Assembly (NCBI RefSeq): GCF_039724765.1
Contig: NZ_CP155729.1
Location: forward strand, 3,605,501-3,669,500
Origin: Sagittula stellata E-37
GTDB lineage: Bacteria; Pseudomonadota; Alphaproteobacteria; Rhodobacterales; Rhodobacteraceae
Direction of reading: 5' to 3'
DNA length: 64,000 nt
Each line of letters begins with the position of its first letter. Position 1 is the first letter of the stretch. The translations under genes were made by a program, and so were the position numbers. Below, in pieces: positions 14,969 to 35,781 of the stretch. Under the pieces are notes generated by a model, which was given only the letters and a program-made list of their open reading frames with translations, did no database searches and was not told the DNA's origin.

Positions 14969-14999
14969 TGAAAATGCCTCCCTGAAAATAGGTGAGGCA

Positions 15000-15028
15000 A
15001 TCATGCCACGAAACGCTGAAAAATTCAA
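15000..15028 (-). promoter_or_regulatory. Predicted promoter of the tyrosinase gene
   Basis: On the minus strand TTGAAT, a 17-base spacer and CATGAT (four of six matches to TATAAT) lie about 35 bases before the start codon, giving a short leader that contains the ribosome site. Confidence 0.5.
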
Positions 15029-15704: not shown

Positions 15705-15983
15705 TCACCGTTTCGACAGCTCCTTGTCGAGAAGCGCCAAAAAAGCCGCCCGAGGATCCTCACCAGAGCCCTCCTGCCAGCCATCCCCAAATCTTTGCTG
15801 TGTTTCCTTGTCTTTCAGGAGAACCGCCATTTGGGCCGCAGAGCGAAGAAGTTCGGCATACCACCATGCGAACCTGCTCTCACCCAAGGCCACCCTGTTC
15901 AGGTAATGCATCCGCGCGGCCATCGCCCGAAGCAGCTCTGCCAGCTCCTCCGGACTGTTGTAGGCGCGCGGATCCTCGGTCAT
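15705..15983 (-). CDS. Hypothetical protein of 92 residues at the end of the sdh operon
   Basis: A small soluble, mainly helical protein (ELAELLRAMAARMHYLNRV, AWWYAELLRSAAQMAVLL). No named domain was recognised. Its ATG at 15983 shares its A with the sdhB stop codon (TGATG), so it is translated from the sdh transcript. Conserved placement directly after sdhB would point to a helper role for succinate dehydrogenase, for example assembly, but it does not resemble SdhE, the known flavinylation factor, in any motif I can see. Confidence 0.72.
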   Translation of the reverse strand: MTEDPRAYNSPEELAELLRAMAARMHYLNRVALGESRFAWWYAELLRSAAQMAVLLKDKETQQRFGDGWQEGSGEDPRAAFLALLDKELSKR

Positions 15984-16765
15984 CAGACGGCGCGTTCCAG
16001 CATCATCTTCTTGATCTCTGCAATGGCCTTCGCAGGGTTCAGACCCTTCGGGCAGGTTTTCGTGCAGTTCATGATTGTGTGGCAGCGGTACAGCTTGAAA
16101 GGGTCTTCCAGCTGATCAAGGCGTTCGCCCGTGGCTTCATCCCGGGAATCGATGATCCAGCGATAGGCATGCAGAAGCGCTGCGGGGCCAAGGTACTTGT
16201 CGCCGTTCCACCAATAAGACGGGCAGGACGTGGAGCAGGACGCACACATCACGCATTCATAGAGGCCGTCGAGCTTCTTGCGATCCTCGATGGACTGCCT
16301 CCACTCTTTGGCCGGGCGGTTGGTCTTGGTCTCCAGCCAAGGCATGATGGAAGCATGCTGGGCATAGAAGTGCGTCAGGTCAGGGATCAGGTCCTTGACC
16401 ACCGGCATGTGCGGCAGCGGGTAGATCTTGACCTCATCGCCGTCGATCTCGTCGAGACCGTAGATGCAGGCCAGCGTGTTGATGCCGTCGATGTTCATGG
16501 CGCAGGACCCGCAGATCCCCTCGCGGCACGAGCGGCGGAAGGTCAGCGTCGGGTCGACCTCGTTCTTGATCTTGATGAGCGCGTCCAGAACCATCGGACC
16601 GCATTCATCCATGTTCAGGAAATAGGTGTCGACGCGCGGGTTCTCTCCGTCGTCGGGGTTCCAGCGGTAGATCTTGAACGCCCGGACGTTGGTCGCCCCT
16701 TCCGGCTTCGGCCAGGTCTTGCCGGTGCGGATTCTGGAGTTCTTGGGGAGCGTGAATTGAACCAT
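15983..16765 (-). CDS. sdhB: Succinate dehydrogenase iron-sulfur subunit
   Basis: A 260-residue subunit of respiratory complex II that carries electrons from the FAD of SdhA to quinone. All three cluster motifs are intact: [16 protein letters not shown] with a following LAC for [2Fe-2S], [16 protein letters not shown] for [4Fe-4S], and [17 protein letters not shown] for [3Fe-4S]. The ATG at 16765 follows AAGGAGAGAGAG. It is separated from sdhA by two small exported-protein genes, and its stop overlaps the start of a 92-residue gene. Confidence 0.97.
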
Positions 16766-17093: not shown

Positions 17094-17398
17094 CAATTCA
17101 GGCAATAGAGCGTTCCCCGATACATTTTTGGAGCGCCCGGCGGGCAGGTGCCGGCGATCCGTGCGCGGTTGCGGTGCGGCGACGGGATATAACCGGCGTA
17201 GCCACCACTGTAACGCGAAAGGCAGGCATCGTAAGCGGCCTGATATTCGGCTGCATATCCGCTTTTTGCCCCGGAGAACCCCACGCCGTTCGCGTAGGCC
17301 TGGCAATCCTGAACAGCGCTTCCTTGCCCGTAGCCGTTGGCCAATGCGGGTGCCGCGAGGGCGGTGAAAGCTGCGGTGAAGATTGCCAGGTGTCGCAT
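17093..17398 (-). CDS. Small exported protein following sdhA
   Basis: A 101-residue protein with a Sec signal peptide (RHLAIFTAAFTALAAPALA, cleavage expected after ALA). The mature part is rich in Gly, Tyr and Ala with four cysteines (QDCQAY, DACLSRY, GTCPPG, LYCLN), so two disulfides in the periplasm are likely. No domain recognised. The ATG at 17398 overlaps the sdhA stop codon as TGATG, and its own stop overlaps the next gene in the same way, so it is tightly built into the sdh operon. Confidence 0.78.
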   Translation of the reverse strand: MRHLAIFTAAFTALAAPALANGYGQGSAVQDCQAYANGVGFSGAKSGYAAEYQAAYDACLSRYSGGYAGYIPSPHRNRARIAGTCPPGAPKMYRGTLYCLN

Positions 17399-19200
17399 CA
17401 GAATGTCCTCGCCTTTGGTGCGATAGTCTTGAGGCTGATCCCACCCTCGTCTTCGGTGGTCAGCGGATCAACAATCACAGGACGATAGGACAGATCGACG
17501 GCGTTTCCAGAGACACGCGCCACGGTGTGCACGCGCCACTTGTCGTCGTCACGCTCGGTAAAGTCCTCATGCGCATGGGCACCACGCGATTCCTTGCGGG
17601 CCTCGGCCCCGACGATCGTCGCCAGAGCGTTGGGCATGAGGTTCGTCAGTTCCAGCGTTTCCATCAGGTCGGAGTTCCAGATCAGCGACGTGTCGGTCAC
17701 ACGCAGGTCGTCGATCTTGCCGGCAATGGCCGTCATCTTCTCGACGCCGTCCTCAAGCGTCTTCGATGTGCGGAACACAGCGGCGTCGGCCTGCATGGTC
17801 TTCTGCATCTCCAGGCGCAGTTCGGCGGTCGGCGTGCCGCCCTGCGCGTACCGCAGGCCGTCGAACCGGTCGAACGCCTTGTCGATCTGGGCTTTGGGCG
17901 CGGTAGGGATGGCAGAGTCACGGTCGACCACCTTGCCGGCACGGATCGCCGCCGCACGCCCGAACACCACGAGGTCGATCAGCGAGTTGGAGCCGAGACG
18001 GTTGGCGCCGTGCACCGAGGCACACCCTGCCTCGCCCACGGCCATCAGGCCTGGGACCACGGCGGTCGGGTTGTCTTCGGTCGGGTTCAGCACTTCGCCC
18101 CAGTAGTTGGTCGGAATGCCGCCCATGTTATAGTGCACTGTCGGCAGAACCGGGATCGGCTCTTTCGTGACATCGACACCGGCAAAGATCTTCGCGGACT
18201 CGGAGATGCCCGGAAGACGTTCGGCCAGCGCTTCTGCCGGCAAGTGGCTGAGGTTCAGGTGGATGTGGTCGCCGTCCTTGCCAACGCCCCTGCCCTCGCG
18301 GATCTCCATCGTCATCGAGCGGGACACGTAATCACGCGGCGCGAGGTCCTTGTAGGTCGGTGCGTACCGCTCCATGAAGCGTTCGCCTTCGGAGTTGGTC
18401 AGATAGCCGCCCTCGCCGCGCGCGCCTTCGGTGATGAGGCAGCCGGAACCGTAGATGCCGGTGGGGTGAAACTGAACGAATTCCATGTCCTGCAAGGCAA
18501 GGCCCGCACGCGCCACCATGCCCCCGCCGTCGCCGGTGCATGTGTGCGCCGAAGTCGCCGAAAAATAAGCACGGCCATAGCCGCCGGTGGCGAGCACAAC
18601 CATCTTGGCGTTGAAGACATGGAAGGTGCCATCGTCCAGTTTCCAGGTCAGCACACCCTTGCAAACGCCGTCTTCCATCAGGAGATCGATGGCAAAGTAC
18701 TCGACGTAGAACTCGGCGCTTTCTTTCAAAGACTGGCCGTACAGCGTGTGCAGGATCGCGTGGCCGGTCCGGTCGGCGGCGGCACAGGTGCGCTGCACCG
18801 GCGGGCCTTCACCGAACTCGGTGGTATGACCGCCGAAGGGGCGCTGGTAGATCTTGCCTTCTTCGGTCCGCGAGAACGGGACGCCGTAGTGCTCAAGCTC
18901 GTAAACGGCCTTCGGTGCCTCGCGGGCGAGGTATTCCATGGCGTCGGTGTCGCCCAGCCAGTCGGACCCCTTTACCGTGTCGTACATGTGCCACTGCCAG
19001 TTGTCGGGTCCCATGTTGGACAACGACGCGGCGATGCCACCCTGCGCGGCGACGGTGTGCGACCGGGTCGGGAAGACCTTGGTCACGCAGGCGGTCTTGA
19101 GTCCCTGCTCTGCCATGCCCAGCGTGGCGCGCAGTCCGGCGCCGCCGGCACCCACAACAACGACGTCGTAATCGTGCGTCTCGTATTCGTATGCAGCCAT
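17398..19200 (-). CDS. sdhA: Succinate dehydrogenase flavoprotein subunit
   Basis: A 600-residue FAD subunit that oxidises succinate to fumarate. The FAD-binding motif [16 protein letters not shown] opens the protein, [14 protein letters not shown] holds the histidine that binds FAD covalently, and [32 protein letters not shown] and [19 protein letters not shown] are the standard substrate and flavin segments. Length is normal. Its stop overlaps a small exported-protein gene. sdhD lies 67 bases upstream on the same strand. Confidence 0.98.
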
Positions 19201-19267
19201 GTGTCAGCCTCGTGTCTTTGGCGCGCGTCCAGACCGGCGTGGGGCCGTCGCTCCGCCCGAAAAGTCG

Positions 19268-19639
19268 TTAGAGCGCCAGTCTGACCAGCGCGAACAGCCC
19301 CGCCGCGATCAGCACGTAGGAGAACGCCGTCACCGCGACCGCGAGCAGTTTGCCGGTGGTGCCGTGTACGTAATCCTCGATCGCTTCCTGCGCTTCGCCG
19401 TTGAAGTGGATCACGCCAACCACCAGCATCAGGGCCGTAATGATTGCCGGGAACGGACGGGCAAAAAACGCCTGTACGTCCTCGTAGCTTCCACCGAAGC
19501 CCGAGCCGAAGCTGAAGACGAACAGCGGCACCAGCACGACCAGAGCCATGGAGGTCACCAGCATTCGCTTGTGGAACTGGGTCCCGGTGCGTCCCGACCC
19601 GAGGCCCTGAGCGCGCTTGCGATCCGTGAGATATTGCAT
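19268..19639 (-). CDS. sdhD: Succinate dehydrogenase membrane anchor subunit
   Basis: A 123-residue membrane protein with three hydrophobic segments (about residues 25-47, 63-80 and 97-120). The second contains GVIHFNGEAQEAIEDYVHG, which supplies the histidine heme ligand and the quinone-site region. With SdhC it anchors complex II and binds heme b. It follows sdhC by 12 bases in the same operon. Confidence 0.93.
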   Translation of the reverse strand: MQYLTDRKRAQGLGSGRTGTQFHKRMLVTSMALVVLVPLFVFSFGSGFGGSYEDVQAFFARPFPAIITALMLVVGVIHFNGEAQEAIEDYVHGTTGKLLAVAVTAFSYVLIAAGLFALVRLAL

Positions 19640-19651
19640 GACCGTTCCTCC

Positions 19652-20041
19652 TCAGACCACGATTGCGGTAAAGATCGCCATGACGCTGGCACCGATGAAC
19701 ATGATCCAGCCCATCATTTCGGACGGCTCGATCTCGACCATGTATCCAAGGTCCCAGATCACGTGGCGTAGACGGCCCAGCATGTGATACCAGATAGCCC
19801 AGCTTGCCAGCAGCATCAGGACGTCTCCGATGAAACTGGTCAGGATGCCGTTCACCACGGCGTAAGCGTCGGGCGATGTGGCGGCGCAGAGCAGCCATAG
19901 AACCAGCAGAGCTGCGGTGCCGAGTGAGGCGATGCCGGTAATGCGCACCATGATCGACGAGATGGATGTCATCTGCGGGCGGTAGTATTGCCCGATCATG
20001 AAGGGCGAAAGCGGGCGGTTGCCCCGGTTCACGTCGGCCAT
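19652..20041 (-). CDS. sdhC: Succinate dehydrogenase cytochrome b556 subunit
   Basis: A 129-residue membrane subunit with three hydrophobic segments. The N-terminal NRGNRPLSPFMIGQYYRPQMTSISSIMVRITG is the conserved SdhC entry region, with the Ser and Arg of the quinone site, and the middle segment WYHMLGRLRHVIWD holds the heme-binding histidine. The ATG at 20041 is preferred to the one at 20047 because AAGGAC is then at a normal distance. First gene of the sdh operon; an unusual double palindrome lies about 120 bases upstream. Confidence 0.94.
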   Translation of the reverse strand: MADVNRGNRPLSPFMIGQYYRPQMTSISSIMVRITGIASLGTAALLVLWLLCAATSPDAYAVVNGILTSFIGDVLMLLASWAIWYHMLGRLRHVIWDLGYMVEIEPSEMMGWIMFIGASVMAIFTAIVV

Positions 20042-20160
20042 GGTCATGTCCTTGCGTTGAATTCCGTTGCCCCCGTTTTAGTGGCTTTTGCTGCGCTGTC
20101 ACGTGGGCTGCGCGCTGCTAGCTGCGGTTTTTTGGCACAAATAGGCGGATTTTTCCGATT

Positions 20161-20191
20161 TGTGATCACGGCTTGCAGGGCCGTGATCACA
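20161..20191. promoter_or_regulatory. Double palindromic operator upstream of sdhC
   Basis: Two copies of the 10-base palindrome TGTGATCAC(A/G) lie at 20161-20170 and 20182-20191, 21 bp centre to centre. Together they also make a larger perfect inverted repeat of 12-base arms. The same pair with the same spacing lies upstream of sucC, so it is probably the binding site of a shared TCA-cycle regulator. Confidence 0.75.
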
Positions 20192-20200
20192 CTTTGGCGG

Positions 20201-20230
20201 TAACGGCGCCGCAGTGCGGCGGCGCCGTTA
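20201..20230. repeat. Perfect 12-base-pair hairpin next to the sdh operator
   Basis: TAACGGCGCCGC and its exact complement are separated by six bases. No U-tract follows on either strand, so it is not a classical terminator. It may still separate mch transcription from the sdh promoter, or act as a further protein site. Confidence 0.6.
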
Positions 20231-20398
20231 CACATGTCGCGATCATGAGAGATTCGGTCGGGAAAGGGCGTCGGATCACCCCAGTGCAGTCGCGCAACGC
20301 CATTAGGTACGGCGACTTACTTCGGCCATCTCACGGCGAGGTAGTGGCCATGCGCCAACAACCTCGACCAAACGGAACCGGCCATGGGCCCGGTGTCG

Positions 20399-21427
20399 TC
20401 AGACCGGCATCAATGCCCAATAGTCGAGATCAAGCAGCACATCCGGAAGGTATTTCCCATCCGGCCCCTTCAGCTCGAACGGACGGCCCCCTTTTGTCGC
20501 CACCAGCCTGAGACGGATCGCGCCGACACCGGGCGCGGAGGTCTCTGCCTTGTCCAGCACCTCCGACCATGCCTTGACGGTGTTCCCGGCCAGGCAGGGA
20601 TTGGCATGCGCGCCGCCGTTCAGCCCGACAATCATCTGCGCGTTGGCAAGACCGTTGAACGACAACGCCCGCGCCATGGAGATGACATGGCCGCCGTAGA
20701 TCAGGCGCTGGTCCGGCCGGGCGGTGACGTCGAAATGCACCTTCGACGTGTTCTGCCACAGGCGCGTCGCCATCATGTGCTCGGCTTCCTCGATCGTCAC
20801 ACCGTCGACATGGTCGATCTTCTCGCCGATTTCGTAATCGCCAAGGCGATGCGGTTCGCCTGCCAGCGTGTCGTCGTAATTCGTGAAGTCCAACCCTTCG
20901 GGGATCACAAGGTCCGCCGGATCCAGCACCGATTTCAGGTCCGGCAAGACGGCATCCGGTGCGGGCGCGTCAAGGTCGCGCTTTCGCAGCATGACCCAAC
21001 GCTTGTACTCCATCACGCATTCGTCGCGTTGATTGAAGCCTTTGGAGTGGACGTAGACCACACCCGTACGGCCATTCGAGTTCTGCTTCAGACCGATCAC
21101 TTCCGACGACGCGCGGAGCGTGTCGCCCGGCCAAACCGGCTTAAGCCAACGCCCTTCGGCATAGCCGAGGTTTGCGACGGCATTCAGCGACACGTCCGGC
21201 ACCGTCTTGCCGAAGACGATATGAAACGCAGCAAGATCGTCCAGCGGCCCACCCGGCAGACCGCAAGACCTTGAGAACTCGTCCGAGGAATAAAGCGCGT
21301 GGCGCATCGGGTAGAGCGCGTGATACAGTGCACGCTCACCTCCCGACACGGTGCGTGGCACTGCGTGGTCTATGACCTGCCCGACTTTGTAGTCCTCGAA
21401 GAAGCGTCCGGGATTGGTCTTCTGCAT
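20399..21427 (-). CDS. mch: Mesaconyl-CoA hydratase (MaoC family)
   Basis: A 342-residue double hot-dog hydratase that interconverts mesaconyl-C1-CoA and (2R,3S)-beta-methylmalyl-CoA in the ethylmalonyl-CoA pathway. The N-terminal half has FFEDYKVGQVIDHAVPRTVS and the second half repeats the theme with LGDYEIGEKIDHVDGVTIEEAEH, as expected of a tandem MaoC fold; YGGHVISMARALSFNGL is the hydratase helix. Length matches the Rhodobacter enzyme. The ATG overlaps the stop of the DUF1737 gene (TGATG), and mcl2 is in the same operon. Confidence 0.92.
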   Translation of the reverse strand: MQKTNPGRFFEDYKVGQVIDHAVPRTVSGGERALYHALYPMRHALYSSDEFSRSCGLPGGPLDDLAAFHIVFGKTVPDVSLNAVANLGYAEGRWLKPVWPGDTLRASSEVIGLKQNSNGRTGVVYVHSKGFNQRDECVMEYKRWVMLRKRDLDAPAPDAVLPDLKSVLDPADLVIPEGLDFTNYDDTLAGEPHRLGDYEIGEKIDHVDGVTIEEAEHMMATRLWQNTSKVHFDVTARPDQRLIYGGHVISMARALSFNGLANAQMIVGLNGGAHANPCLAGNTVKAWSEVLDKAETSAPGVGAIRLRLVATKGGRPFELKGPDGKYLPDVLLDLDYWALMPV

Positions 21428-21630
21428 CAGTACGCTCCCAACTTGATGTCGGGGGCATAGGTGCCGTCCACCTCCTTCACGACCGCCTGGCCACAGCGCA
21501 TGACCCCGTTGGCCGCGTCGAAGGCATAGGTCGGCGTGCCGTAAAGCTCCCAGCCGGCATTCAGCGCGGCCGTGACCTTGTGGCAGAAGGCCGAGGTATC
21601 GTCCTCGGACAAGAAGCGGTAAAGTTTCAT
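21427..21630 (-). CDS. DUF1737 domain protein
   Basis: A 67-residue protein consisting of one DUF1737 domain (KLYRFLSEDDTSAFCHKVTAALNAGWELYGTPTYAFD). Proteins of this type are short, soluble and of unknown function. It starts 4 bases after nnrU and its stop overlaps the mch start, so it belongs to the mcl2-nnrU-DUF1737-mch transcript. Nothing in its sequence ties it to CoA chemistry. Confidence 0.8.
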   Translation of the reverse strand: MKLYRFLSEDDTSAFCHKVTAALNAGWELYGTPTYAFDAANGVMRCGQAVVKEVDGTYAPDIKLGAY

Positions 21631-21634
21631 GAGG

Positions 21635-22180
21635 TTACCCGAATGCAGGTGGGCCGATCAGCCCATGGACATAGCCGATCACAACGAGCAGCACGAGAGA
21701 GATCGCCATAAACATGGCGTCCTTCGCGATGCTGCCTTTGGACGGAGCGACCCAACCGGGTTCGGCACGGTTGATGACGATCATCTCCACGACGGCCCAG
21801 AGGCCCAGACCGCCGAACAGGACGAAGGACGGAACGTCACCGTTCACCAGCAGGTGCGCCAGAGTCCAGAGAAGGAACCCCAGGAGCATCGGGTGGCGCA
21901 ATTTGTAGAACAGTGCACCCTTTTTCGGTCCCGGCGACGTCAGGTACAGAGCAAAGAGCATGATGAGGTTGTTGATCCCGACCGTCGCCGGGTGACGCCC
22001 CCAAAAGAATGCACCGTCGGCCATACGGTAGCCGAAGATCATGAGAAGAATGGAGGCGACGAGCGCGAGCGCGACAACCCCCTTGCCCTTGTTGCCCATG
22101 GGCTCTCGTACGCCCGGTGCGATGCGTTTGAAGAGGTGCGCGGCCCACCAGAGCGCAACACCCAGAATCAGCAGAAGCAT
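21635..22180 (-). CDS. nnrU: NnrU-family membrane protein
   Basis: A 181-residue membrane protein with about five hydrophobic segments and the NnrU/isoprenylcysteine-methyltransferase-like core LRHPMLLGFLLWTLAHLLVNGD. NnrU was first described with nitrite and nitric oxide reductase genes, but many Rhodobacteraceae keep it away from denitrification genes, as here. The ATG at 22180 follows GAGGAA. It lies between mcl2 and the DUF1737 gene in one operon; a role in respiration or in NO response would be an inference only. Confidence 0.85.
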   Translation of the reverse strand: MLLLILGVALWWAAHLFKRIAPGVREPMGNKGKGVVALALVASILLMIFGYRMADGAFFWGRHPATVGINNLIMLFALYLTSPGPKKGALFYKLRHPMLLGFLLWTLAHLLVNGDVPSFVLFGGLGLWAVVEMIVINRAEPGWVAPSKGSIAKDAMFMAISLVLLVVIGYVHGLIGPPAFG

Positions 22181-22218
22181 GGTTAAGTTCCTCGTCCTGG
22201 TCGGTGCGCACCCTGCCC

Positions 22219-23067
22219 TTATCCAGCGAGCGCAGCAATGGCCTGCGCCTTGGCGAGGGTCTTCTTCGCGGTCTCGACGTGCAGGTTCTCTACGATCTTG
22301 CCATCCACCACCGCGACGCCTTGCCCCTGGGCTTTCGCGTCTTCGAAGGCCTCGATCTGGCGGCGGGCGAGGTCGATCTCCTTCTCGTCTGGCGCGAAGG
22401 CGGCATTGGTGATGTCGACCTGTGCGGGGTGGATCAGCGTCTTGCCGTCCATACCCATGTCACGGCCCTGTGCGCATTCGGCCTTCAGTCCGTCGTCGTC
22501 CTTGAAGGCATTGTAGACGCCATCGACTACGACCTTCCCGAACGCCTTCGCCGCCAGCACACAGAGCCCCAGACCGGTGATCATCGGCAGGCGGTCCGCG
22601 CGGAAGCGCGCGTTAAGTTCCTTTGCAAGGTCGTTGGTGCCCATGACCATGCCCTGCAGACGGGGATGCGCGCCGATGTCCCTGGCATTAAGCATGCCCA
22701 TGGGCGTCTCCATCATTGCCCAGAGCGGCTTGTCGGTGATCTCCGCCAACCGGTCGAGCTGCGCGGGGGTCTCCACCTTGGGCAGGAGGATTGCGTCACA
22801 GTTCATCGCGGTCGCCGCCTTCGCGTCATCCAGCCCCCATTCCGTGTCGAGCGCGTTGATCCGCACAATCCGGGTGCGCTGGCCGTAGGACGTCTTCAGC
22901 GCATCGGCGAGAGTGGCACGGGCGGCGGGCTTTTCCTCCGGTGCGACGGCGTCCTCGAGGTCGAAGATGATGGCATCGACCGGCATCGAACGCGCCTTCT
23001 CGAGCGCGCGCTCCTTGGAGGCGGGAATGTATAGAACGGACCGGAAAGGTCGGGTCGCCATGTCCAT
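22219..23067 (-). CDS. mcl2: (3S)-malyl-CoA thioesterase, Mcl2 type (CitE-like)
   Basis: A 282-residue HpcH/HpaI-CitE family protein. Segments PFRSVLYIPASKERALEKAR, DAIIFDLEDAV, LLPKVETPAQLDRL and GMVMGTNDLAKELNAR match the shorter Mcl2 type of Rhodobacter, which hydrolyses (3S)-malyl-CoA to malate and CoA at the end of the ethylmalonyl-CoA pathway. The longer Mcl1 lyase has a different N-terminus and about 318 residues. The ATG at 23067 follows AAGGAG. First gene of an operon with nnrU and mch. An inverted repeat CGCAA-N5-TTGCG directly precedes the ribosome site. Confidence 0.88.
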   Translation of the reverse strand: MDMATRPFRSVLYIPASKERALEKARSMPVDAIIFDLEDAVAPEEKPAARATLADALKTSYGQRTRIVRINALDTEWGLDDAKAATAMNCDAILLPKVETPAQLDRLAEITDKPLWAMMETPMGMLNARDIGAHPRLQGMVMGTNDLAKELNARFRADRLPMITGLGLCVLAAKAFGKVVVDGVYNAFKDDDGLKAECAQGRDMGMDGKTLIHPAQVDITNAAFAPDEKEIDLARRQIEAFEDAKAQGQGVAVVDGKIVENLHVETAKKTLAKAQAIAALAG

Positions 23068-23379
23068 CTGAGTCTCCTTGCGCAACTTTATTGCGTTGGG
23101 ATGCACATTTTTTGCCGGAAAGTTCAAGAGAAAACTCGCTGCATTGCAGAATGCGGTGCGTTGTGAGGCGCGGTTTTCAGGCAATTGGTTCGCATTTGAT
23201 CCAGCGCGCGCCGCATTAACCGGATTTAAGCCGGTCAAGGCAGAGGATGTTCGCAGGTCGTTCCAATACGACGACGAATGATCGAGGGGCGCTTCCAGAC
23301 AGGGTCGGCGCCCGGGAACCGAGAGGACTCACACAGCGTTCTCCGTCTGACGGAGCGCAAGAGCCGAAAGGTCAAGACG
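23068..23379. other. 312-base divergent intergenic region
   Basis: It must carry the promoters of mcl2 (leftward) and of the exported-protein gene at 23380. At the left end CGCAA (23081-23085) and TTGCG (23091-23095) form a short inverted repeat inside the mcl2 leader. A TTAACC at 23216 is a lone CtrA-like half-site. No gene is supported. Confidence 0.45.
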
Positions 23380-23694
23380 ATGATAACGATGAAATTGGGT
23401 CTGCTCTCCGCAGGTTTCATTCTGGGCGCAGCATCTCTCGTAGAGGCGCAACAGCTTCAGCACTGCGCCCCGCGCGAGAAAGTGGTGGAGCGGCTCGCAG
23501 ACAAATACGGTGAAACGCGCCAAAGCATGGGTCTTGGCTCCAACAACGCCGTGATGGAGGTTTTCGCCTCGGTCGAAAGCGGATCCTGGACGATCACTGT
23601 CACCATGTCCAACGGCATCACCTGCCTGGTGGCGTCCGGCCAGGCGTTCGAGGAACTGGCCGAAGTTCTCCCGCCCAAAGGAGACGATGCATGA
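23380..23694 (+). CDS. Exported hypothetical protein
   Basis: A 104-residue protein with a Sec signal peptide (MKLGLLSAGFILGAASLVEAQ, cleavage near VEA). The mature part reads QHCAPREKVVERLADKYGETRQ and later SWTITVTMSNGITCLVASGQ, giving two cysteines that may form a disulfide. I have the impression that similar short proteins are common in Rhodobacteraceae but know no function. The ATG at 23380 has AAAGG upstream; ATG at 23389 is an alternative. Transcribed divergently from mcl2 and convergent with the TauE/SafE gene. Confidence 0.75.
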   Translation: MITMKLGLLSAGFILGAASLVEAQQLQHCAPREKVVERLADKYGETRQSMGLGSNNAVMEVFASVESGSWTITVTMSNGITCLVASGQAFEELAEVLPPKGDDA

Positions 23695-23740
23695 AGTGAA
23701 CCGGGCACGATCCTGAACAGTCGTGCCCGTATCGTGGATC

Positions 23741-24493
23741 TCAGGTCAGCGCGTCCCAGATAAGCTTTGCCCCGGTCAGCGTCAGCGCGACATACGTGAT
23801 CCCGAAGAAAACCCGCTCTGGCAACATGTGATGCGCCCGAATGCCTATCCACGTCCCGAGTATCGCAAAGGGCACGAGGATCAGATCCAGCATCAGAGTT
23901 TCGTGCGTGAAAATGCCCATGAAGGCGTAGAAGAAAGACTTGAAGAGGTTCACGGCCCAGAAAACCAGCACGGTTGTGGCCTGGTAGGACGTCTTCGAAA
24001 TCCCTTGCCCCAACATGTAGACGGCAGCCGCCGGTCCGCCGGCGTGGCTGACAAAGCTCGTGAAACCGAGAACCACTCCCGACGTCACGCCGGTCTTGGG
24101 TCCAAAGCGCATTCCCAGCCTGATGAGACCTGTGGACCGGGCCGCCTGCCAGCCCACGAACAACAGGGCCACGCTCCCGATCAGGAATCTGATCGCGTCA
24201 GGGTCGGCCCAGGCCCAGAACAGCGCCCCGAGGATCGTGCCCGGGATCGACCCGACCAGCAGAATCTTCGCCACCTCCCAGTCCCACTTCTTCCAGTAGG
24301 CCCAGAGGCTGGTGACATCCATCATCATCAACAGCGGCAACATCAGCCCTACCGCCACCTCCGGTGGCAGCACTAGCGCCAGAATCGAACTGCTCGCGAA
24401 AGCGACCCCGGACCCGAAGCCGCCCTTGGAAATGCCTGCGAAGACGACCGCGGGAAGGCAGAAAGCGATGACGGTCCAATTGACCAGTTCCAC
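23741..24493 (-). CDS. TauE/SafE-family sulfite or anion exporter
   Basis: A 250-residue membrane protein with about eight hydrophobic segments. AGISKGGFGSGVAFASS near the start and TSFVSHAGGPAAAVYML in the middle are the duplicated Gly-rich motifs of the TauE/SafE family, which exports sulfite, sulfoacetate or related anions. It might serve sulfonate metabolism, but the tau genes are more than 20 kb away. A GTG start at 24493 is chosen because GAGGAG lies 6 bases before it; there is no ATG nearby. Confidence 0.85.
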   Translation of the reverse strand: MELVNWTVIAFCLPAVVFAGISKGGFGSGVAFASSSILALVLPPEVAVGLMLPLLMMMDVTSLWAYWKKWDWEVAKILLVGSIPGTILGALFWAWADPDAIRFLIGSVALLFVGWQAARSTGLIRLGMRFGPKTGVTSGVVLGFTSFVSHAGGPAAAVYMLGQGISKTSYQATTVLVFWAVNLFKSFFYAFMGIFTHETLMLDLILVPFAILGTWIGIRAHHMLPERVFFGITYVALTLTGAKLIWDALT

Positions 24494-24561
24494 GCCACTC
24501 TCCTCTAAAACGCCGCGCAAACCGGGCTTTAACGCAGCCGTCCCGGGTATGATAGCCCTAA

Positions 24562-25614
<1,053 letters not shown>

Positions 25615-25639
25615 CGGGCCAGACGCAACACGTCATTTG

Positions 25640-25670
25640 ATGCCGGTCCCTGCAAGGGGCCGGCATTTTC
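25640..25670 (+). terminator. Terminator of mdh
   Basis: An 11-base-pair stem with one wobble (ATGCCGGTCCC with GGGGCCGGCAT), a 5-base loop and a TTTT tail, 26 bases after the mdh stop. The reverse gene at 25674 ends next to it and may use it too. Confidence 0.8.
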
Positions 25671-25673
25671 GTG

Positions 25674-26582
25674 TCAGGGGTCGACGCTCGTCACTTTCGC
25701 ATAGCCCTCTCCGGTCCACCGCCAAACGCCAAATGGCATGTCCACCCCGCCGACCGGTTGCATCCACAGATCCGGCCACCCCTCGGTCCGATTTGCGCTA
25801 TCCGCCCAGATCACTGTCCCGACATGCTGCGCGATCTGCCACGCCGCTCCATCCTCGACGATGGCCAGGCTCACGGATGTTCCGGACGCGCCATACATCT
25901 CTGACGGGCCGGTCTCGATAGCCAGGAGAGCGACACCCTCGCTCACCGGCAGACGCGTTATGGACAAGATGCCATCGGGTCCGATGACCTCCAGCTGGTC
26001 GGCAAGTAGGACGGCCGCCCGCGACACGTCGTCGGCAGACCCCTTCCCTCCGAACATCGGCACGAAGCGGTCGGAAGTCTGCCCCGGAACGGGACGCTCG
26101 GTCCCAGCCTTGTCTTCCCCGCTTTTCCGGCACGCGTCTTGCACCCGCACCAGCGCCCTCGACGACCCTTTCAGAGGCAGAGGGAAAGACGCGATACGGC
26201 CCCTGTCCAATCCGACGGTCGCCAGAACGCCACGCCCGAGCGCCTCGACCAGAGCATCGTCACGGTCGGCATTGAAGTCAGACGCGGCAATCATACCGGA
26301 GATATCCATGTCGAGGGTGTAGGTCGTCCCGCCGATCGCAAGAGAGACGCCCAGCTGCCCGTCGTCCGGCATGTCTGGCAGGGTCATCGCCCATCCCAGA
26401 TCGCCCGCGTCGCACCTGAGGATGAGGCAGGCTTGGGCTCCGCCGATGGTCGTGCAACCCCGCGCGCCTTGCCCGATACCGTCGCCTTCACCAAGCGCGC
26501 CCCAATCTGCCAGCGCCTCCTGCACAGGCAAAATGCCCAGTGCCATTGCAATCACCGCTGATCGACAAAATGCCGAAGCCAT
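25674..26582 (-). CDS. Exported hypothetical protein of 302 residues
   Basis: The protein has a Sec signal peptide (SAVIAMALGILPVQEALA, cleavage near residue 25). The mature part contains WGALGEGDGIGQGARGCTTIGGAQACLILRC, a cysteine-rich start reminiscent of DUF1176 and invasion-associated-locus-B-like proteins, then no recognisable domain. AGGAG lies very close to the first ATG, so the start might be the later ATG at 26546, which would still leave the signal. It is single, convergent with mdh and divergent from sucC. Confidence 0.72.
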   Translation of the reverse strand: MASAFCRSAVIAMALGILPVQEALADWGALGEGDGIGQGARGCTTIGGAQACLILRCDAGDLGWAMTLPDMPDDGQLGVSLAIGGTTYTLDMDISGMIAASDFNADRDDALVEALGRGVLATVGLDRGRIASFPLPLKGSSRALVRVQDACRKSGEDKAGTERPVPGQTSDRFVPMFGGKGSADDVSRAAVLLADQLEVIGPDGILSITRLPVSEGVALLAIETGPSEMYGASGTSVSLAIVEDGAAWQIAQHVGTVIWADSANRTEGWPDLWMQPVGGVDMPFGVWRWTGEGYAKVTSVDP

Positions 26583-26684
26583 TCTCCTGCACGCTCCCCA
26601 TAAATCGCTCTCAGCCTAGGCCGCCGACGCCTTTGGGACAAGATAGCGCTTGATTCCTTGACAAACGCTAACACCGCCAATGCT

Positions 26685-26715
26685 TGTGATCACACTTTTC
26701 CGGGCTGTGATCACA
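26685..26715. promoter_or_regulatory. Double palindromic operator upstream of sucC
   Basis: Two perfect palindromes TGTGATCACA lie at 26685-26694 and 26706-26715, 21 bp centre to centre, about 115 bases before the sucC start. Both the motif and the spacing repeat the arrangement upstream of sdhC. On the downstream side both operators are followed within a few bases by TCGGAAA. Confidence 0.75.
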
Positions 26716-26828
26716 GATGTCGGAAAGTAACCCCTTTTTCACGTTCATTGGCATTTTTTGTTTAACCCCACCCGCAATGCGTGCCTATACCCGATGCAAA
26801 TCGCAGCAAGCACGGGGATCACGTACCC

Positions 26829-28022
26829 ATGAATATCCACGAATATCAGGCCAAGGCACTTCTGCGCAGCTACGGGGCTCCGGTGTCGGACGGACGCGTC
26901 GTCCTGAGAGCCGAAGAAGCAAAGACCGCGGCAGGTGCACTCGATGGCCCGCTCTGGGTGGTCAAGGCGCAGATCCACGCGGGCGGCCGCGGCAAGGGCT
27001 CCTTCAAGGAGGCCGACGCGGGCGAGAAGGGCGGCGTGCGCCTCGCCAAGAGCGTGGAAGAAGCGGCGGAAGAAGCCAAGAAGATGCTGGGCAAGACGCT
27101 CGTCACCCACCAGACCGGCCCGGCCGGCAAGCAGGTGAACCGCATCTACATCGAGGACGGCTCCGACATCGAGCGCGAGCTGTATCTTGCGCTGCTGGTG
27201 GACCGCCAGACTTCCCGCATCTCCTTCGTGTGCTCCACCGAGGGTGGCATGGACATCGAGGAAGTGGCCGCGAGCACCCCGGAAAAGATCCTGTCCTTCT
27301 CCGTCGATCCGGCCACCGGCTACCAGCCGTTCCACGGCCGCCGCATCGCCTTTGCGCTCGGTCTCGACAAGGCCGGCCAGAAGCATTGCGTGAAGCTGAT
27401 GGGCATCCTCTACAAGGCCTTCGTCGAGAAGGACATGGAGATGCTCGAAATCAACCCGCTGATCGTCCTGAAAGACGGCACGCTCAAGGTGCTGGACGCC
27501 AAGCTGGGCTTCGACGGCAACGCTTTGTACCGCCAGGCCGAAGTGGCCGAGCTGCGTGACGAGACCGAGGAAGATTCCAAGGAACTGCAGGCGTCGAAGT
27601 ACGACCTGAACTACATCGCCCTCGACGGCGAGATCGGCTGCATGGTGAACGGCGCGGGCCTTGCCATGGCGACCATGGACATCATCAAGCTTTATGGGGC
27701 CGAGCCTGCCAACTTCCTCGATGTGGGCGGCGGCGCGACCAAGGAGAAGGTGACCGAGGCGTTCAAGATCATCACCTCGGACAAGAACGTCAAAGGCATC
27801 CTCGTCAACATCTTCGGCGGTATCATGCGCTGTGACATCATTGCCGAAGGCGTCATCGCCGCAGTGAAGGAGGTTGGCCTGCAAGTCCCGCTTGTCGTCC
27901 GTCTCGAAGGCACGAACGTCGAGAAAGGCAAAGAGATCATTGCGAACTCCGGCCTGAACGTGATCGCCGCCGACGACCTCAAAGACGGCGCCGAGAAGAT
28001 CGTGAAAGCCGTCAAGGGCTGA
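26829..28022 (+). CDS. sucC: Succinyl-CoA synthetase beta subunit (ADP-forming)
   Basis: A 397-residue ATP-grasp subunit; with SucD it converts succinyl-CoA to succinate with substrate-level phosphorylation. It begins [19 protein letters not shown] and has [22 protein letters not shown] (metal ligands), [18 protein letters not shown] and [10 protein letters not shown] in order, and has the family length. The ribosome site is weak (GGGGAT), and the double palindrome lies upstream. A small membrane-protein gene separates it from sucD. Confidence 0.97.
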
Positions 28023-28211
28023 CCTGACCGCCGGCGGACCTCAGGGAATGCCGGCCGTCTCCCTTCCTTGCACAGGGACGATACATGACCCTCCCCTTCC
28101 ACATGTCCGCAGCAAGACGCCGCGACCGCTCTGGCGGTCGTGACGGCATTGCTTCCGCCGCGGAACCTGGAACGGGTTTTCAGGGTTGTCTCTTCAATGG
28201 AGGGAACTCGG

Positions 28212-28574
28212 ATGAACAAGATCTTACGTCATGGCGACCTGCCGGGTCGCGCGGCCCTGAAGCGGATCACCACGCCAGCGGCGAAGAACACGGACCGCTG
28301 GACGCCGTTGGTGTTTGGCGGCGCGCTGATCGGGATCGGTGCCGTTCTGCTGAAGGTCAAGCCGCGCATCGGCCATGTGCCGAACCCGACGCCGTTTACG
28401 GACCAAACCACATCCAAGCGCCGGCATATCAACGCGCGCAAGGCCCGCGACACGGTGAAGGCCTTCGCACCCACCAATGTCACCGACCAGATCGGTCGTT
28501 CGCTCGTTCTGGGCGGCACGGCTTTGCTGCTGACACGCCTGCTGGACGAAGCATCCGGTCGCGCGCGGCGGTAA
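28212..28574 (+). CDS. Small membrane protein between sucC and sucD
   Basis: A 120-residue protein beginning [19 protein letters not shown]. It has a hydrophobic segment at about residues 36-52 ([16 protein letters not shown]) and a weaker one near 98-110, with a basic region between. No domain recognised. The ATG at 28212 follows a strong GGAGGGAA. Its location inside the suc operon suggests co-transcription with succinyl-CoA synthetase, but no functional link can be read from the sequence. Confidence 0.75.
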
Positions 28575-28731: not shown

Positions 28732-29619
28732 ATGGCCGTTCTCATCGACGAAAACACCAAAGTCATTTGCCAGGGCTTCACCGGCTCGCAGGGCACTTTC
28801 CACTCGGAACAGGCCATTGCCTACGGCACCAAGATGGTCGGCGGCGTGACGCCCGGCAAAGGCGGTCAGACCCACCTCGACCTTCCCGTCTTCGACAGCG
28901 TGCACGAAGCCAAAGCCAAGACCGAGGCAAACGCATCGGTGATCTACGTGCCGCCGCCGTTCGCTGCCGACTCAATCCTCGAAGCGATCGACGCTGAGAT
29001 GGAACTGATCGTCTGCATCACCGAGGGCATCCCGGTGCTCGATATGATGAAGGTCAAGCGCGCGCTGGAGAACTCCAAATCGACGCTGATCGGCCCGAAC
29101 TGCCCCGGCGTCATCACGCCCGACGCCTGCAAGATCGGCATCATGCCCGGTCACATCCACAAGCGCGGCAAAGTGGGCGTCGTGTCCCGCTCCGGCACGC
29201 TGACCTACGAGGCCGTGAAGCAGACCACCGACGTCGGCCTCGGCCAGTCGACCTGCGTCGGCATCGGCGGCGATCCCATCAAAGGCACTGAGCACATCGA
29301 CGTGCTGGAATGGTTCCTGGCGGACGACGAAACCGAGGCGATCATCATGATCGGTGAAATCGGCGGATCGGCGGAAGAGGACGCGGCTGCGTTCCTCGCC
29401 TCCGAAAAGAAAAAGGGCCGCTGGAAGCCGACCGCCGGTTTCATCGCGGGCCGCACCGCACCTCCGGGGCGCCGCATGGGCCACGCGGGCGCCATTGTCG
29501 CCGGCGGCAAAGGTGGTGCCGATGACAAGATCGAAGCGATGAAGGCCGCCGGCATCGTCGTGGCGGACAGCCCCGCCACGCTCGGCGAGGCCGTGCTCGA
29601 AGCCATCAAGAATGGCTGA
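28732..29619 (+). CDS. sucD: Succinyl-CoA synthetase alpha subunit
   Basis: A 295-residue subunit that binds CoA and is phosphorylated on histidine. The CoA fold is [37 protein letters not shown] precedes RSGTLTYE, and the active-site histidine is in [16 protein letters not shown]. Length is typical. It forms the enzyme with SucC. Hairpins lie in the long gap after it. Confidence 0.97.
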
Positions 29620-31235: not shown

Positions 31236-34202
31236 ATGACCGACCAAAGCCCGAACGACCTTTTCCGCGCCTCCAGCTTCATGCAGGGGCACAACGCGGA
31301 GTACCTGGAACAGATGTACGCCCGCTATGCCGCCAATCCGAGCGCGGTTGACGATGCCTGGGCGGCGTTTTTCAAACAGTTGGGCGACGATGAAACCTCT
31401 GTCCGGCGCGAGGCGGAAGGCCCTTCCTGGGCGCGCTCCGACTGGCCGCCCGCGCCGGAAGACGACCTTACAGCGGCCCTGACCGGCGAATGGCCGATGC
31501 CCGCCGTCCCGGCAGAGGCGAAGGGCGCCGCCAAAAAGATTGCCGCGAAGGCGAATGAGCAGGGCGTTTCCGTCTCGAACGAGGCGATCCAGCGCGCCGT
31601 TCTGGATTCGATCCGCGCGCTGATGCTGATCCGGGCCTACCGCATCCGCGGCCACCTCGCCGCCGACCTCGACCCGCTGGGTCTGCGCGACACGTCCAAT
31701 CACCCGGAGCTCGACCCGAAGTCCTACGGCTTTACCGAAAGCGACATGGACCGCCCGATCTTCATCGACAACGTTCTGGGGCTGCAGATCGCCTCCCTGC
31801 GCGAAATCGTGTCTATCGTGAAACGCACCTATTGCGGCACCTTCGCACTGCAGTACATGCACATCTCGGACCCGGAGCAATCCTCGTGGCTGAAGGAACG
31901 GATCGAGGGCTACGGCAAGGAGATCCACTTCACGCGTGAGGGGCGCAAGGCGATCCTCAACAAGATGGTGGAGGCCGAGGGCTTCGAAAAGTTCCTACAC
32001 GTCAAGTACATGGGCACGAAGCGGTTCGGTCTCGACGGCGGCGAATCCCTGATCCCGGCGATGGAACAGATCATCAAGCGCGGCGGCAACCTCGGACTGA
32101 AGGAAATCGTCATCGGGATGCCGCACCGTGGCCGCCTGTCGGTGCTCGCGAACGTGATGAACAAGCCCTACAAGGCGATCTTCAACGAGTTCCAGGGCGG
32201 CAGCTTCAAGCCGGAAGACGTGGACGGTTCGGGCGACGTGAAGTACCACCTCGGCGCGTCCTCCGACCGCGAGTTCGACGGCAACACCGTGCACCTGTCC
32301 CTGACGGCGAACCCATCGCACCTGGAAGCCGTGAACCCGGTCGTTCTGGGCAAGGTCCGCGCCAAGCAGGACCAGTTCGGCGACGTGAACCGGACGCAGG
32401 TCATGCCGATCCTGTTGCACGGCGACGCGGCCTTTGCCGGTCAGGGCGTCGTGGCGGAATGTTTCGCCCTGTCGGGCCTGCGCGGTCACCGCACCGGCGG
32501 CACGATGCACATCATCGTCAACAACCAGATCGGCTTCACCACCGCGCCGCATTTCTCGCGCTCGTCCCCCTACCCGACCGACAACGCGCTGGTGGTCGAG
32601 GCACCAATCTTCCACGTCAACGGCGACGACCCGGAGGCCGTCGTGCACGCCGCGAAGGTCGCGACCGAGTTCCGCCAGAAGTTCGGCAAGGACGTGGTCA
32701 TCGACATCTTCTGCTATCGCCGCTTCGGTCACAACGAGGGCGACGAGCCCATGTTCACCAACCCGGTGATGTACAACAAGATCAAGAAGCAGAAGACGAC
32801 GCTGACGCTGTACACGGAACGGCTGGTCAAGGACGGTCTGATCCCCGAGGGCGAGATCGAGGACATGAAAGCCGCGTTCCAGGCCAAGCTGAACGAGGAG
32901 TTCGAGGCAGGCAAAGTCTACAAGCCCAACAAGGCCGACTGGCTGGACGGTCGCTGGTCGCACCTCGACAAGCAGAAAGAGGGCAAGTACCAGCGCGGCA
33001 AGACGGCGATCAAGGAAGAGACCTTCCAGAAGATCGGCTCTGCCCTGACGACCGTTCCGGACGGTTTCCCGCTGCACAAGACCGTGGGCCGACTGGTCGA
33101 CGCACGGGCACAGATGTTCAAGACGGGACAGGGTTTCGACTGGGCGACGGCAGAGGCCTTGGCCTTCGGTTCGCTCCAGCTCGAAGGGTATCCCGTCCGT
33201 CTGGCCGGCCAGGACTCCACACGTGGCACGTTCAGCCAGCGCCACTCCGCGTTCGTCAACCAGGAGACGGAAGAGCGCTATTACCCGCTGAACAACATCC
33301 GCGAAGGCCAGGCCCGGTACGAAGTGATCGACTCCGCGCTGTCCGAATACGCGGTGCTGGGCTTCGAGTACGGCTACTCCATGGCTGAACCGAACGCCCT
33401 GACCCTGTGGGAAGCGCAGTTCGGCGACTTCGCCAACGGCGCGCAGATCATGTTCGACCAGTTCATCTCAAGCGGTGAATCGAAGTGGCTTCGGATGTCC
33501 GGCCTCGTCTGCTTGATGCCGCACGGCTTCGAAGGCCAGGGGCCGGAACACTCATCCGCCCGCCTTGAGCGTTTCCTGCAGCTCTGCGGACAGGACAACT
33601 GGATCGTCGCGAACTGCTCCACGCCCGCGAACTATTTCCACATCCTGCGTCGCCAGCTGCACCGGTCCTACCGGAAGCCTCTGATGCTGATGACGCCGAA
33701 GTCGCTTCTGCGCCACAAGCTGTGCGTCTCGGAGATGGAGATGTTCACCACAGGCTCGTCCTTCCACCGCGTCCTCTGGGACGACTCGGAAACCGGGCAT
33801 TCGGAAACCAAGCTGGTGGCGGACGACAAGATCAAGCGCGTCGTCATGTGCTCGGGCAAGGTCTACTTCGACCTCCTCGAAGAACGCGACGCCCGCGGTC
33901 TGGATGACGTCTACCTGCTGCGGGTCGAACAGTTCTACCCGTTCCCGGCGATCAGCCTCGTCAAGGAGCTGGAACGTTTCAAGCAGGCCGAGATGATCTG
34001 GTGTCAGGAAGAGCCGAAGAACCAGGGCGCCTGGTCCTTCATCGAGCCGAACATCGAATGGGTCCTTGGCCGCATCAAGGCCGAGCATCCGCGCCCGCGC
34101 TACGTGGGCCGCGCCACTTCGGCCTCGCCCGCGACGGGCCTGGCCTCCACCCACAAGGCACAGCAAGCCGCGCTTGTCGACGAAGCGCTGACGATCGAAT
34201 GA
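31236..34202 (+). CDS. sucA: 2-oxoglutarate dehydrogenase E1 component
   Basis: A 988-residue thiamine-diphosphate enzyme that decarboxylates 2-oxoglutarate and passes the succinyl group to the lipoyl arm of OdhB. The N-terminus (LFRASSFMQGHNAEYLEQMYARY) is the E2-binding helix; GMPHRGRLSVLANVMNKPY, HLGASSDREFDG and MPILLHGDAAFAGQGVV form the cofactor site, and SQRHSAFVNQETEERYYPL follows later. AAGAGG precedes the ATG. odhB begins 46 bases after it. Confidence 0.98.
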   Translation: MTDQSPNDLFRASSFMQGHNAEYLEQMYARYAANPSAVDDAWAAFFKQLGDDETSVRREAEGPSWARSDWPPAPEDDLTAALTGEWPMPAVPAEAKGAAKKIAAKANEQGVSVSNEAIQRAVLDSIRALMLIRAYRIRGHLAADLDPLGLRDTSNHPELDPKSYGFTESDMDRPIFIDNVLGLQIASLREIVSIVKRTYCGTFALQYMHISDPEQSSWLKERIEGYGKEIHFTREGRKAILNKMVEAEGFEKFLHVKYMGTKRFGLDGGESLIPAMEQIIKRGGNLGLKEIVIGMPHRGRLSVLANVMNKPYKAIFNEFQGGSFKPEDVDGSGDVKYHLGASSDREFDGNTVHLSLTANPSHLEAVNPVVLGKVRAKQDQFGDVNRTQVMPILLHGDAAFAGQGVVAECFALSGLRGHRTGGTMHIIVNNQIGFTTAPHFSRSSPYPTDNALVVEAPIFHVNGDDPEAVVHAAKVATEFRQKFGKDVVIDIFCYRRFGHNEGDEPMFTNPVMYNKIKKQKTTLTLYTERLVKDGLIPEGEIEDMKAAFQAKLNEEFEAGKVYKPNKADWLDGRWSHLDKQKEGKYQRGKTAIKEETFQKIGSALTTVPDGFPLHKTVGRLVDARAQMFKTGQGFDWATAEALAFGSLQLEGYPVRLAGQDSTRGTFSQRHSAFVNQETEERYYPLNNIREGQARYEVIDSALSEYAVLGFEYGYSMAEPNALTLWEAQFGDFANGAQIMFDQFISSGESKWLRMSGLVCLMPHGFEGQGPEHSSARLERFLQLCGQDNWIVANCSTPANYFHILRRQLHRSYRKPLMLMTPKSLLRHKLCVSEMEMFTTGSSFHRVLWDDSETGHSETKLVADDKIKRVVMCSGKVYFDLLEERDARGLDDVYLLRVEQFYPFPAISLVKELERFKQAEMIWCQEEPKNQGAWSFIEPNIEWVLGRIKAEHPRPRYVGRATSASPATGLASTHKAQQAALVDEALTIE

Positions 34203-34248: not shown

Positions 34249-35781
34249 ATGACCGAAGTACGCGTCCCCACCCTTGGGGAATCGGTGACCGAGGCCACCG
34301 TGGCCACCTGGTTCAAGAAGCCAGGCGACAGCGTTGCCGTGGACGAAATGCTGTGTGAACTGGAAACCGACAAGGTAACGGTCGAAGTGCCCTCGCCCGT
34401 TGCCGGCACCCTGTCGGACATCGTGGCAAAGGAAGGCGATACAGTGGGCGTCGATGCCCTTCTGGCCAACATCGCCGAATCTGGCAGCGCCGGCCCCGAA
34501 GAGACGAAACCCCGCGAAAATGATGCCGAGACAAGCCGGGGCAGCGCCTCCGGTGGCGGCGACAGCGTCGACGTCGTGGTGCCCACTCTGGGCGAATCCG
34601 TGACCGAAGCGACCGTATCCACCTGGTTCAAGAAGGTCGGCGACAGCGTCACACAAGACGAGATGCTCTGCGAACTGGAAACCGACAAGGTCTCGGTCGA
34701 GGTGCCCGCTCCGGCCTCCGGCACACTGACGGAGATCGTCGCCCAGGAAGGCGAAACCGTCGAAGCCAACGCCAAGCTTGCGGTGATCGCCTCCGGCGAG
34801 GGTGTTTCCGCCGCGCCGAAAGCAGAGACCGCACCGAAGGACACGCAGTACTCCACACCGCCCGCGGGCGATGGCGGGCCGGGCAAGGACATCAAGGACG
34901 GCCCGGCAGCCGAAAAGGCCATGGCCGAAGCAGGTGTTTCCCGCGATCAGGTCAAGGGCACCGGCAAGGACGGTCGCGCGACGAAGGCAGATGTGGCCGC
35001 AGCCGTGGCTGCCGCGAACGCTTCCCCTGCGACATCCGCTCCGGCCTCTGCACCGCGTGCGCCCGTCGCGGCCCAAGATGAGGCACGCGAAGAGCGGGTG
35101 AAGATGACCCGCCTGCGCCAGACCATCGCACGCCGCCTGAAGGACGCGCAGAACACCGCCGCGATCCTGACCACCTACAACGAAGTGGACATGACCGAGG
35201 TCATGGCGCTGCGGTCCGAGTACAAGGACCTTTTCGAGAAGAAGCACGGCGTTCGTCTGGGCTTCATGTCCTTCTTCACGAAGGCCTGCTGCCACGCGCT
35301 GAAAGAAGTGCCCGAAGTCAACGCAGAGATCGACGGCACCGACATCGTCTACAAGAACTTCGTGCACATGGGCATCGCGGCGGGCACGCCGCAGGGTCTG
35401 GTGGTTCCGGTGATCCGCGACGCCGACAGCATGTCTTTCGCGGAAATCGAGAAGGCGATCAACGAGAAGGGCAAGCGCGCCCGTGACGGCAAGCTGTCCA
35501 TGGCAGAGATGCAGGGCGGCACCTTCACCATCTCCAACGGTGGCGTCTATGGCTCGCTCATGTCCTCGCCGATCCTGAACCCCCCGCAGTCCGGCATCCT
35601 CGGCATGCACAAGATCCAGGACCGCCCGATGGTCATCAACGGCGAGATCAAGATCCGCCCGATGATGTATCTGGCGCTGAGCTACGACCACCGCATCGTC
35701 GACGGCAAGGGCGCAGTGACATTCCTCGTCCGCGTGAAAGAGGCACTGGAAGACCCCCGCCGCCTGCTGATGGACCTGTAA
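34249..35781 (+). CDS. sucB: 2-oxoglutarate dehydrogenase E2 (dihydrolipoamide succinyltransferase) with two lipoyl domains
   Basis: A 510-residue core subunit. Two lipoyl domains in tandem carry the lipoylated lysine in ELETDKV at residues 42 and 147; their opening sequences [13 protein letters not shown] are nearly identical. A peripheral-subunit-binding domain ([24 protein letters not shown]) follows, then an Ala/Pro linker and the catalytic domain ending in [13 protein letters not shown] with the active-site His. One lipoyl domain is usual in well-studied bacterial OdhB proteins. A terminator follows directly. Confidence 0.97.

Follow-up and report, generated by a model that had tools for sequence, protein, structure and literature searches.

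Paired palindromes before the sdh and suc operons of Sagittula stellata E-37 and its relatives as candidate activator sites of an AkgR-like GntR regulator

The 64,000-nucleotide stretch of the Sagittula stellata E-37 genome analyzed here (the window; contig NZ_CP155729.1, positions 3,605,501 to 3,669,500) contains two operons for enzymes of the tricarboxylic acid (TCA) cycle, sdhCDAB and sucCDAB, each preceded by a pair of 10-bp palindromes spaced 21 bp centre to centre. With a probability that we put at roughly 0.85, these pairs are sites of P0001, a GntR regulator of the FadR/FCD type and of the same kind as AkgR (RSP_0981) of Rhodobacter sphaeroides, two dimers of which would bind one face of the DNA and activate both operons. 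This assignment is drawn from sequence comparisons.

The sdhC-side pair, TGTGATCACGGCTTGCAGGGCCGTGATCACA (20161..20191, minus strand), comprises the palindromes TGTGATCACG (20161-20170) and CGTGATCACA (20182-20191), and the sucC-side pair, TGTGATCACACTTTTCCGGGCTGTGATCACA (26685..26715, plus strand), contains TGTGATCACA twice (26685-26694 and 26706-26715). Both match the pattern TGTGATCAC-N13-GTGATCACA exactly and end 113 bp before a start codon, that of sdhC (20047, minus) or of sucC (26829, plus). The original prediction, made from the window alone, had placed two such pairs at these positions and with this spacing, about 115-120 bp before the first genes of the TCA operons, and had seen no further copy in the window. 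The positions and the spacing are confirmed, and the only window sites with 0-1 mismatch to TGTGATCACA are these four palindromes. At up to 2 mismatches TGTGATCACA has 13 window matches against a shuffle mean of 19.6, so single loose palindromes are meaningless here and the exact pair is what stands out. A search of the pair at up to 3 mismatches in the 5.29 Mb genome returned both operators, as exact matches, and two other places with 3 mismatches each; a third copy with 2 or fewer mismatches is absent from the whole genome. The 9-base TGTGATCAC occurs 14 times in the genome, strands counted, and the full TGTGATCACA three times (both sucC palindromes and one elsewhere), against about 2.3 expected from composition; thus its location counts rather than its number. 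The sequence TCGGAAA, also proposed as a shared element, does follow both window pairs but is absent from all other promoters compared, 31 of sdhC and 30 of sucC. Its occurrence in 1/32 sdhC and 1/31 sucC promoters, the window itself each time, marks it as incidental.

The pair is conserved in the family Rhodobacteraceae. At up to 2 mismatches it is present in 261 of 295 genomes of the family, and at the stricter threshold of 1 mismatch in 5 of 289 genomes drawn from the class, including 1 of the 284 outside the family. Base composition gives a rough chance estimate of about 0.1 match per genome at 2 mismatches. The reversed pattern matched 1 of 295 genomes, which is unfair as an estimate of chance because the reversed word contains CTAG, a tetranucleotide rare in many bacteria. 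Forty stretches surrounding listed pairs, 36 of which cover the one or two pairs that a genome usually has and four an extra pair, yielded, together with the window, 32 sdhC and 31 sucC promoters; these stretches were selected for having pairs and so reveal which genes are preceded, not how frequently. The pair ends 100-184 bp before the start of sdhC and 98-149 bp before that of sucC, with 105-113 bp in 24 of the 31 sucC promoters. The pair is present upstream of orthologous sdhC and sucC genes in relatives, and its exact form does not occur scattered over the genomes.

Further loci gave the same picture. Among 34 genomes chosen for three or more matches at 2 mismatches, those already fetched being excluded, 27 have two pairs at 1 mismatch, three have one and four have three; in three of these last four (G135, G191, and G285) the third pair belongs to a triple of palindromes spaced 21+21 bp. 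All 33 pairs at 21 bp in 30 further loci could be assigned, 26 to sucC and seven to sdhC. As the assigned pairs belong almost wholly to sucC and sdhC, the regulon seems very small. Spacings were scanned from 20 bp upward: three genomes (G133, G151, and G286) have 20 bp rather than 21 bp, before sucC or sdhC, and 42 of 256 family genomes have exact cores spaced 22-52 bp from each other. Many of these wider-spaced cores resemble coding sequence, and those of G135 and G191 are the ends of 21+21-bp triples.

Several extra pairs were considered individually. An exact 21-bp pair in G042 (L223:4093-4123) lies 123 bp before the class II fumarase gene fumC, and another in G177 (L205:4032-4062) lies 134 bp before sucA; G177 also carries a triple palindrome array before sdhC. 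Each arrangement was seen once, but both pairs look real, and the first suggests that fumC has joined the regulon in G042. Two extra 1-mismatch pairs (L225 and L232) fall within genes of the transaldolase/fructose-6-phosphate aldolase family, where codons explain them, and two 2-mismatch pairs (L218 and L224), in or before TPR-like reading frames, were treated as chance matches. The word TGTGATCAC is unusually common in G055, G133, and G151 (68, 52, and 67 strand matches, against 14 in the window genome), which perhaps indicates an expanded regulon or merely base composition.

Only 7 bp separate the third TGTGATCACA of the genome from the start codon of the gene that it precedes, a GntR/FCD gene (L001; G000:C1:1010669-1011322) located outside the window and about 2.6 Mb away. 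The encoded protein, P0001, contains GntR and FCD domains scoring above the Pfam cut-offs. Its closest solved relative by sequence is the GntR/FCD protein McbR of Escherichia coli (PDB 4p9f; E 1.3e-20), a distant one and, to our knowledge, not a TCA-cycle regulator. The family consensus has two histidines at the usual FCD metal-ligand places; the third ligand is presumably absent from it. No FCD gene is present within the window, and the genome has 27 FCD matches in total.

The palindrome regularly accompanies the P0001 gene. Of the best 80 orthologous loci, taken from named genomes (79 distinct, two being identical), 78 have TGTGATCACA with 0-1 mismatch before the gene, as do 29 of 30 loci from the family search, a set that overlaps the 80. 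Of the 295 family genomes, 269 encode a P0001 relative at E <= 1e-40; 253 have both the protein and the pair, 16 the protein only, eight the pair only and 18 neither. Outside the family the best homologues reach at most 42% identity. For seven of 25 such homologues (32-42% identity; L237, L239, L242, L252, L253, L255, and L260), an exact TGTGATCACA stands no more than 350 bp upstream of the homologue's gene; we estimate that chance would give far less than one exact site in these 25. The sole pair found outside the family also precedes a GntR gene (L226). The word thus seemingly belongs to this GntR clade. Some of the other 18 homologues carry variants such as TGTTATAACA (L245 and L250) or TTTGATCATA, and a family of self-sites with shifting specificity among GntR homologues is possible.

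The position of the palindrome at the regulator gene is nearly constant. In 67 of the 78 loci a TTGAnn box precedes its beginning by exactly 11 bp (by 11 or 12 bp in 75), and in 66 loci 7-9 bp separate its end from the first start codon in frame. A spacer of 17 bp would place the -10 region on the 3' part of the palindrome and the transcription start at or near the start codon, from which we infer that the P0001 gene may be leaderless and self-repressed.

At the sdhC promoters the operator appears to be locked in helical phase with the promoter. In the window, the predicted -35 box GTGACA (20097..20102, minus strand) lies 58 bp past the operator and is separated by a 16-bp spacer from the predicted -10 box TAAAAC (20075..20080). 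A -35/-10-like pattern, (G/T)TGAC-N16-18-TA, follows the operator in 26 of 33 sdhC rows, representing 32 promoters, one of which has two registers. When the family was searched for exact cores 21 bp apart with GTGAC following within 42-72 bases, 171 of 295 genomes matched, and 150 matches were listed. Among the matches listed, the distance from operator end to GTGAC was 46-47 in eight, 56-59 in 125, 67-69 in nine and scattered in eight (43, 53, 53, 54, 62, 65, 65, and 70). Twenty matches were fetched. The 16 of these that represent the 46-47 and 67-69 classes all proved to be sdhC promoters, and so is the seventeenth member, in G134. Among the scattered values, 54 and the two of 65 come from sucC, and 70 from a match on the wrong strand. 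The four other scattered values, judged from the match listings, lie on the strand opposite to a main-class match on the same pair (G002, G003, and G005) or opposite to a mapped sdhC (G219). Main-class cases, 125 in all, were checked where they fall within fetched stretches, and at least one must be wrong-strand, since G242 matches on both strands of one pair.

A further class at 77-78 bp, which the 42-72 range of this search could not reveal, comes from L188, L189 and the outer pair of the triple in L205. At sdhC the operator and the -35 box are thus separated by 46-47, 56-59, 67-69, or 77-78 bp, successive classes differing by roughly one turn of the helix. When distances were drawn uniformly 100,000 times, no draw fitted the phase of the main class as well as the 25 minor distances do, the scattered values included. 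At sucC the operator and the start of the predicted -35 box are 46-47 bp apart, one turn from the main class of sdhC; in the window this box is TTAACC (26762..26767, plus strand), 46 bp past the operator, where TTT is the consensus, followed after a 17-bp spacer by the predicted -10 box CTATAC (26785..26790). At sdhC, whole-turn classes of this kind argue for activation from one helix face. The 21-bp or 20-bp spacing, the 21+21-bp triples and the phase-locking to the promoter also support the proposal in the original prediction of a single dimeric regulator occupying two adjacent sites on the same face.

In the mechanism proposed here, one palindrome would accommodate one dimer of P0001, and two dimers, two helical turns apart on the same DNA face, would be centred at about -87 and -108 from the predicted start at sucC and at about -98 and -119 at sdhC. 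From that face they could contact RNA polymerase and activate both operons, while binding to the single palindrome over the predicted -10 region of the regulator gene would repress it. A broader scheme, to which we would give somewhat less than even odds, is that the number and place of the word set the sign of regulation: a phase-locked pair at 20/21 bp, sometimes a triple, would activate from about 85-120 bp upstream of the start, and a single copy at the -10 region of the regulator's own, presumably leaderless gene would repress. The two TCA operons and the regulator would then form the regulon in most of the family, with the operator shifted by whole turns, and the same palindrome would be an old self-site of a wider alphaproteobacterial GntR clade.

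Several observations weigh against this assignment. No GTGAC is within reach in five of the 33 sdhC rows, and the sucC boxes are weakly supported, the simple -35/-10 pattern being present in 12 of 32 rows. One ortholog with 74% identity (L236) lacks the palindrome before its gene, as do 18 of the 25 homologues outside the family with respect to exact TGTGATCACA. The eight genomes with a pair and without a P0001 relative at E 1e-40 include two, G101 and G114, scored 100% complete, and among the matches listed the 20-bp pairs account for three of the 16 protein-only genomes (G133, G151, and G286). The Fisher p of 8e-14 for the co-occurrence of protein and pair is indicative only, because the genomes are related.

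Comparison with known systems supports the AkgR-like character of P0001. According to PMC4344238, the GntR regulator RSP_0981 is independently predicted to control sucCD, sdh, and sucAB in R. sphaeroides. The targets match, comprising succinyl-CoA synthetase, succinate dehydrogenase and 2-oxoglutarate dehydrogenase: the sites precede sdhC and sucC in the window and in relatives, and sucAB follow sucCD in the window and have their own pair in L205. The locus numbers place RSP_0981 near its target genes, and in G208, G274, G203, and G294 the P0001 orthologue is similarly encoded on the same contig as the operators, at most about 20 kb away, unlike the distant regulator gene of the window genome. 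By family, targets and synteny P0001 is likely AkgR-like, and between the two regulators named in the original prediction, AkgR of the GntR family is favoured over CceR of the LacI family. RSP_0981 was reportedly named AkgR in 2015 by Imam et al. in mBio, where direct activation is said to be described, and the whole-turn phasing fits such a direct activator of TCA genes. In this the operators resemble those of CRP/FNR-type upstream activators, as the distance between site and promoter seems to shift by whole helical turns only, a rule known for CRP. CRP itself belongs to another protein family, and its site TGTGA-N6-TCACA has six bases between arms that adjoin directly in the palindrome, so its earlier exclusion on spacing is sound.

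It is unlikely that the pairs bind another regulator, such as CceR or another FCD protein, with the palindrome before the akgR-like gene only marking its control by that protein. The 27 FCD matches in the genome offer other candidates, and CceR (RSP_1663) is predicted over central carbon genes including sdh in R. sphaeroides (PMC4344238). Moreover, CceR-like words (GTT-N6-8-AAC or GCGCTAAC) lie near 14 of 32 sdhC promoters, where mononucleotide shuffles predict 5.4, and near seven of 31 sucC promoters, where they predict 5.0. However, the CceR motif as printed in that source, (A/G/T)GTT-N6-8-AAC(A/C/T), is absent from TGTGATCACA, the palindrome precedes this one GntR gene in nearly all orthologous loci at the place expected of an autoregulatory site, and it also precedes genes of distant homologues of P0001. 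Joint control of the sdhC promoters of relatives (L186-L222) by CceR is possible alongside P0001.

The same GntR regulator might also bind the pairs and repress sdh and suc, for instance by looping or by blocking another activator, and we consider this improbable. Many FCD regulators are repressors, and the site at the regulator's own gene may act in that way, but the predicted promoter boxes are well downstream of the pairs, at whole-turn distances, and AkgR reportedly activates directly. Formation of an RNA hairpin, an attenuator or terminator, in place of a protein site is very improbable indeed. The sdhC pair does fold as a 12-bp stem beside one of 13 bp (111 nt, z -6.6). Any two copies of one palindrome, though, will pair with each other, the inner spacers vary between genomes, the predicted promoter lies downstream of the pair, the regulator gene needs no more than a single copy, and no Rfam match was found in 19000-28500. 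Activation by P0001 bound at the pairs remains the preferred explanation.

The identities of the genes in the window were confirmed with NCBIfam for sdhCDAB, mdh, and sucCDAB. The sdh operon, on the minus strand, begins with sdhC for the cytochrome b556 subunit of succinate dehydrogenase (19652..20047; TIGR02970), followed by genes for the membrane anchor SdhD (19268..19639; TIGR02968), the flavoprotein subunit SdhA (17398..19200; TIGR01816) and the iron-sulfur subunit SdhB (15983..16765; NF004616). The suc operon, on the plus strand, begins with sucC for the beta subunit of succinyl-CoA synthetase (26829..28022; NF001913) and continues with sucD for the alpha subunit (28732..29619; NF004230). 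The genes for 2-oxoglutarate dehydrogenase E1, sucA (31236..34202; NF006914), and dihydrolipoyllysine succinyltransferase, sucB (34249..35781; NF004309), are probably part of the same operon, judging from gene order and strand. Just past the sdhC operator, between sdhC and a mesaconyl-CoA hydratase-like gene (20399-21427, minus), there is a perfect 13-bp inverted repeat with a 6-base loop and without a T run (20200-20231), perhaps the terminator of the latter gene. Downstream of sdhB is a gene for a tyrosinase-domain protein (13526-15028; PF00264, E 3e-30), an odd neighbour for TCA genes. Between mdh and sucC, the opposite strand holds a reading frame of 302 aa (25674-26582) that matches no Pfam family at E 1e-5.

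A search of literature text for TGTGATCAC, with supplements outside its reach, gave no title on this operator among the 40 matches listed, out of 84 papers that contain the word. Control of the sdh and suc operons by AkgR has already been predicted in print, and the detailed anatomy of the operator may be new. The paired site offers a concrete operator, open to testing, through which a large bacterial family may control its TCA cycle. The many genomes in which the presumed activator site is shifted from the promoter by whole helical turns represent a natural experiment, and a DNA word tied to a GntR clade beyond the family would aid the annotation of regulators that are still without a name.

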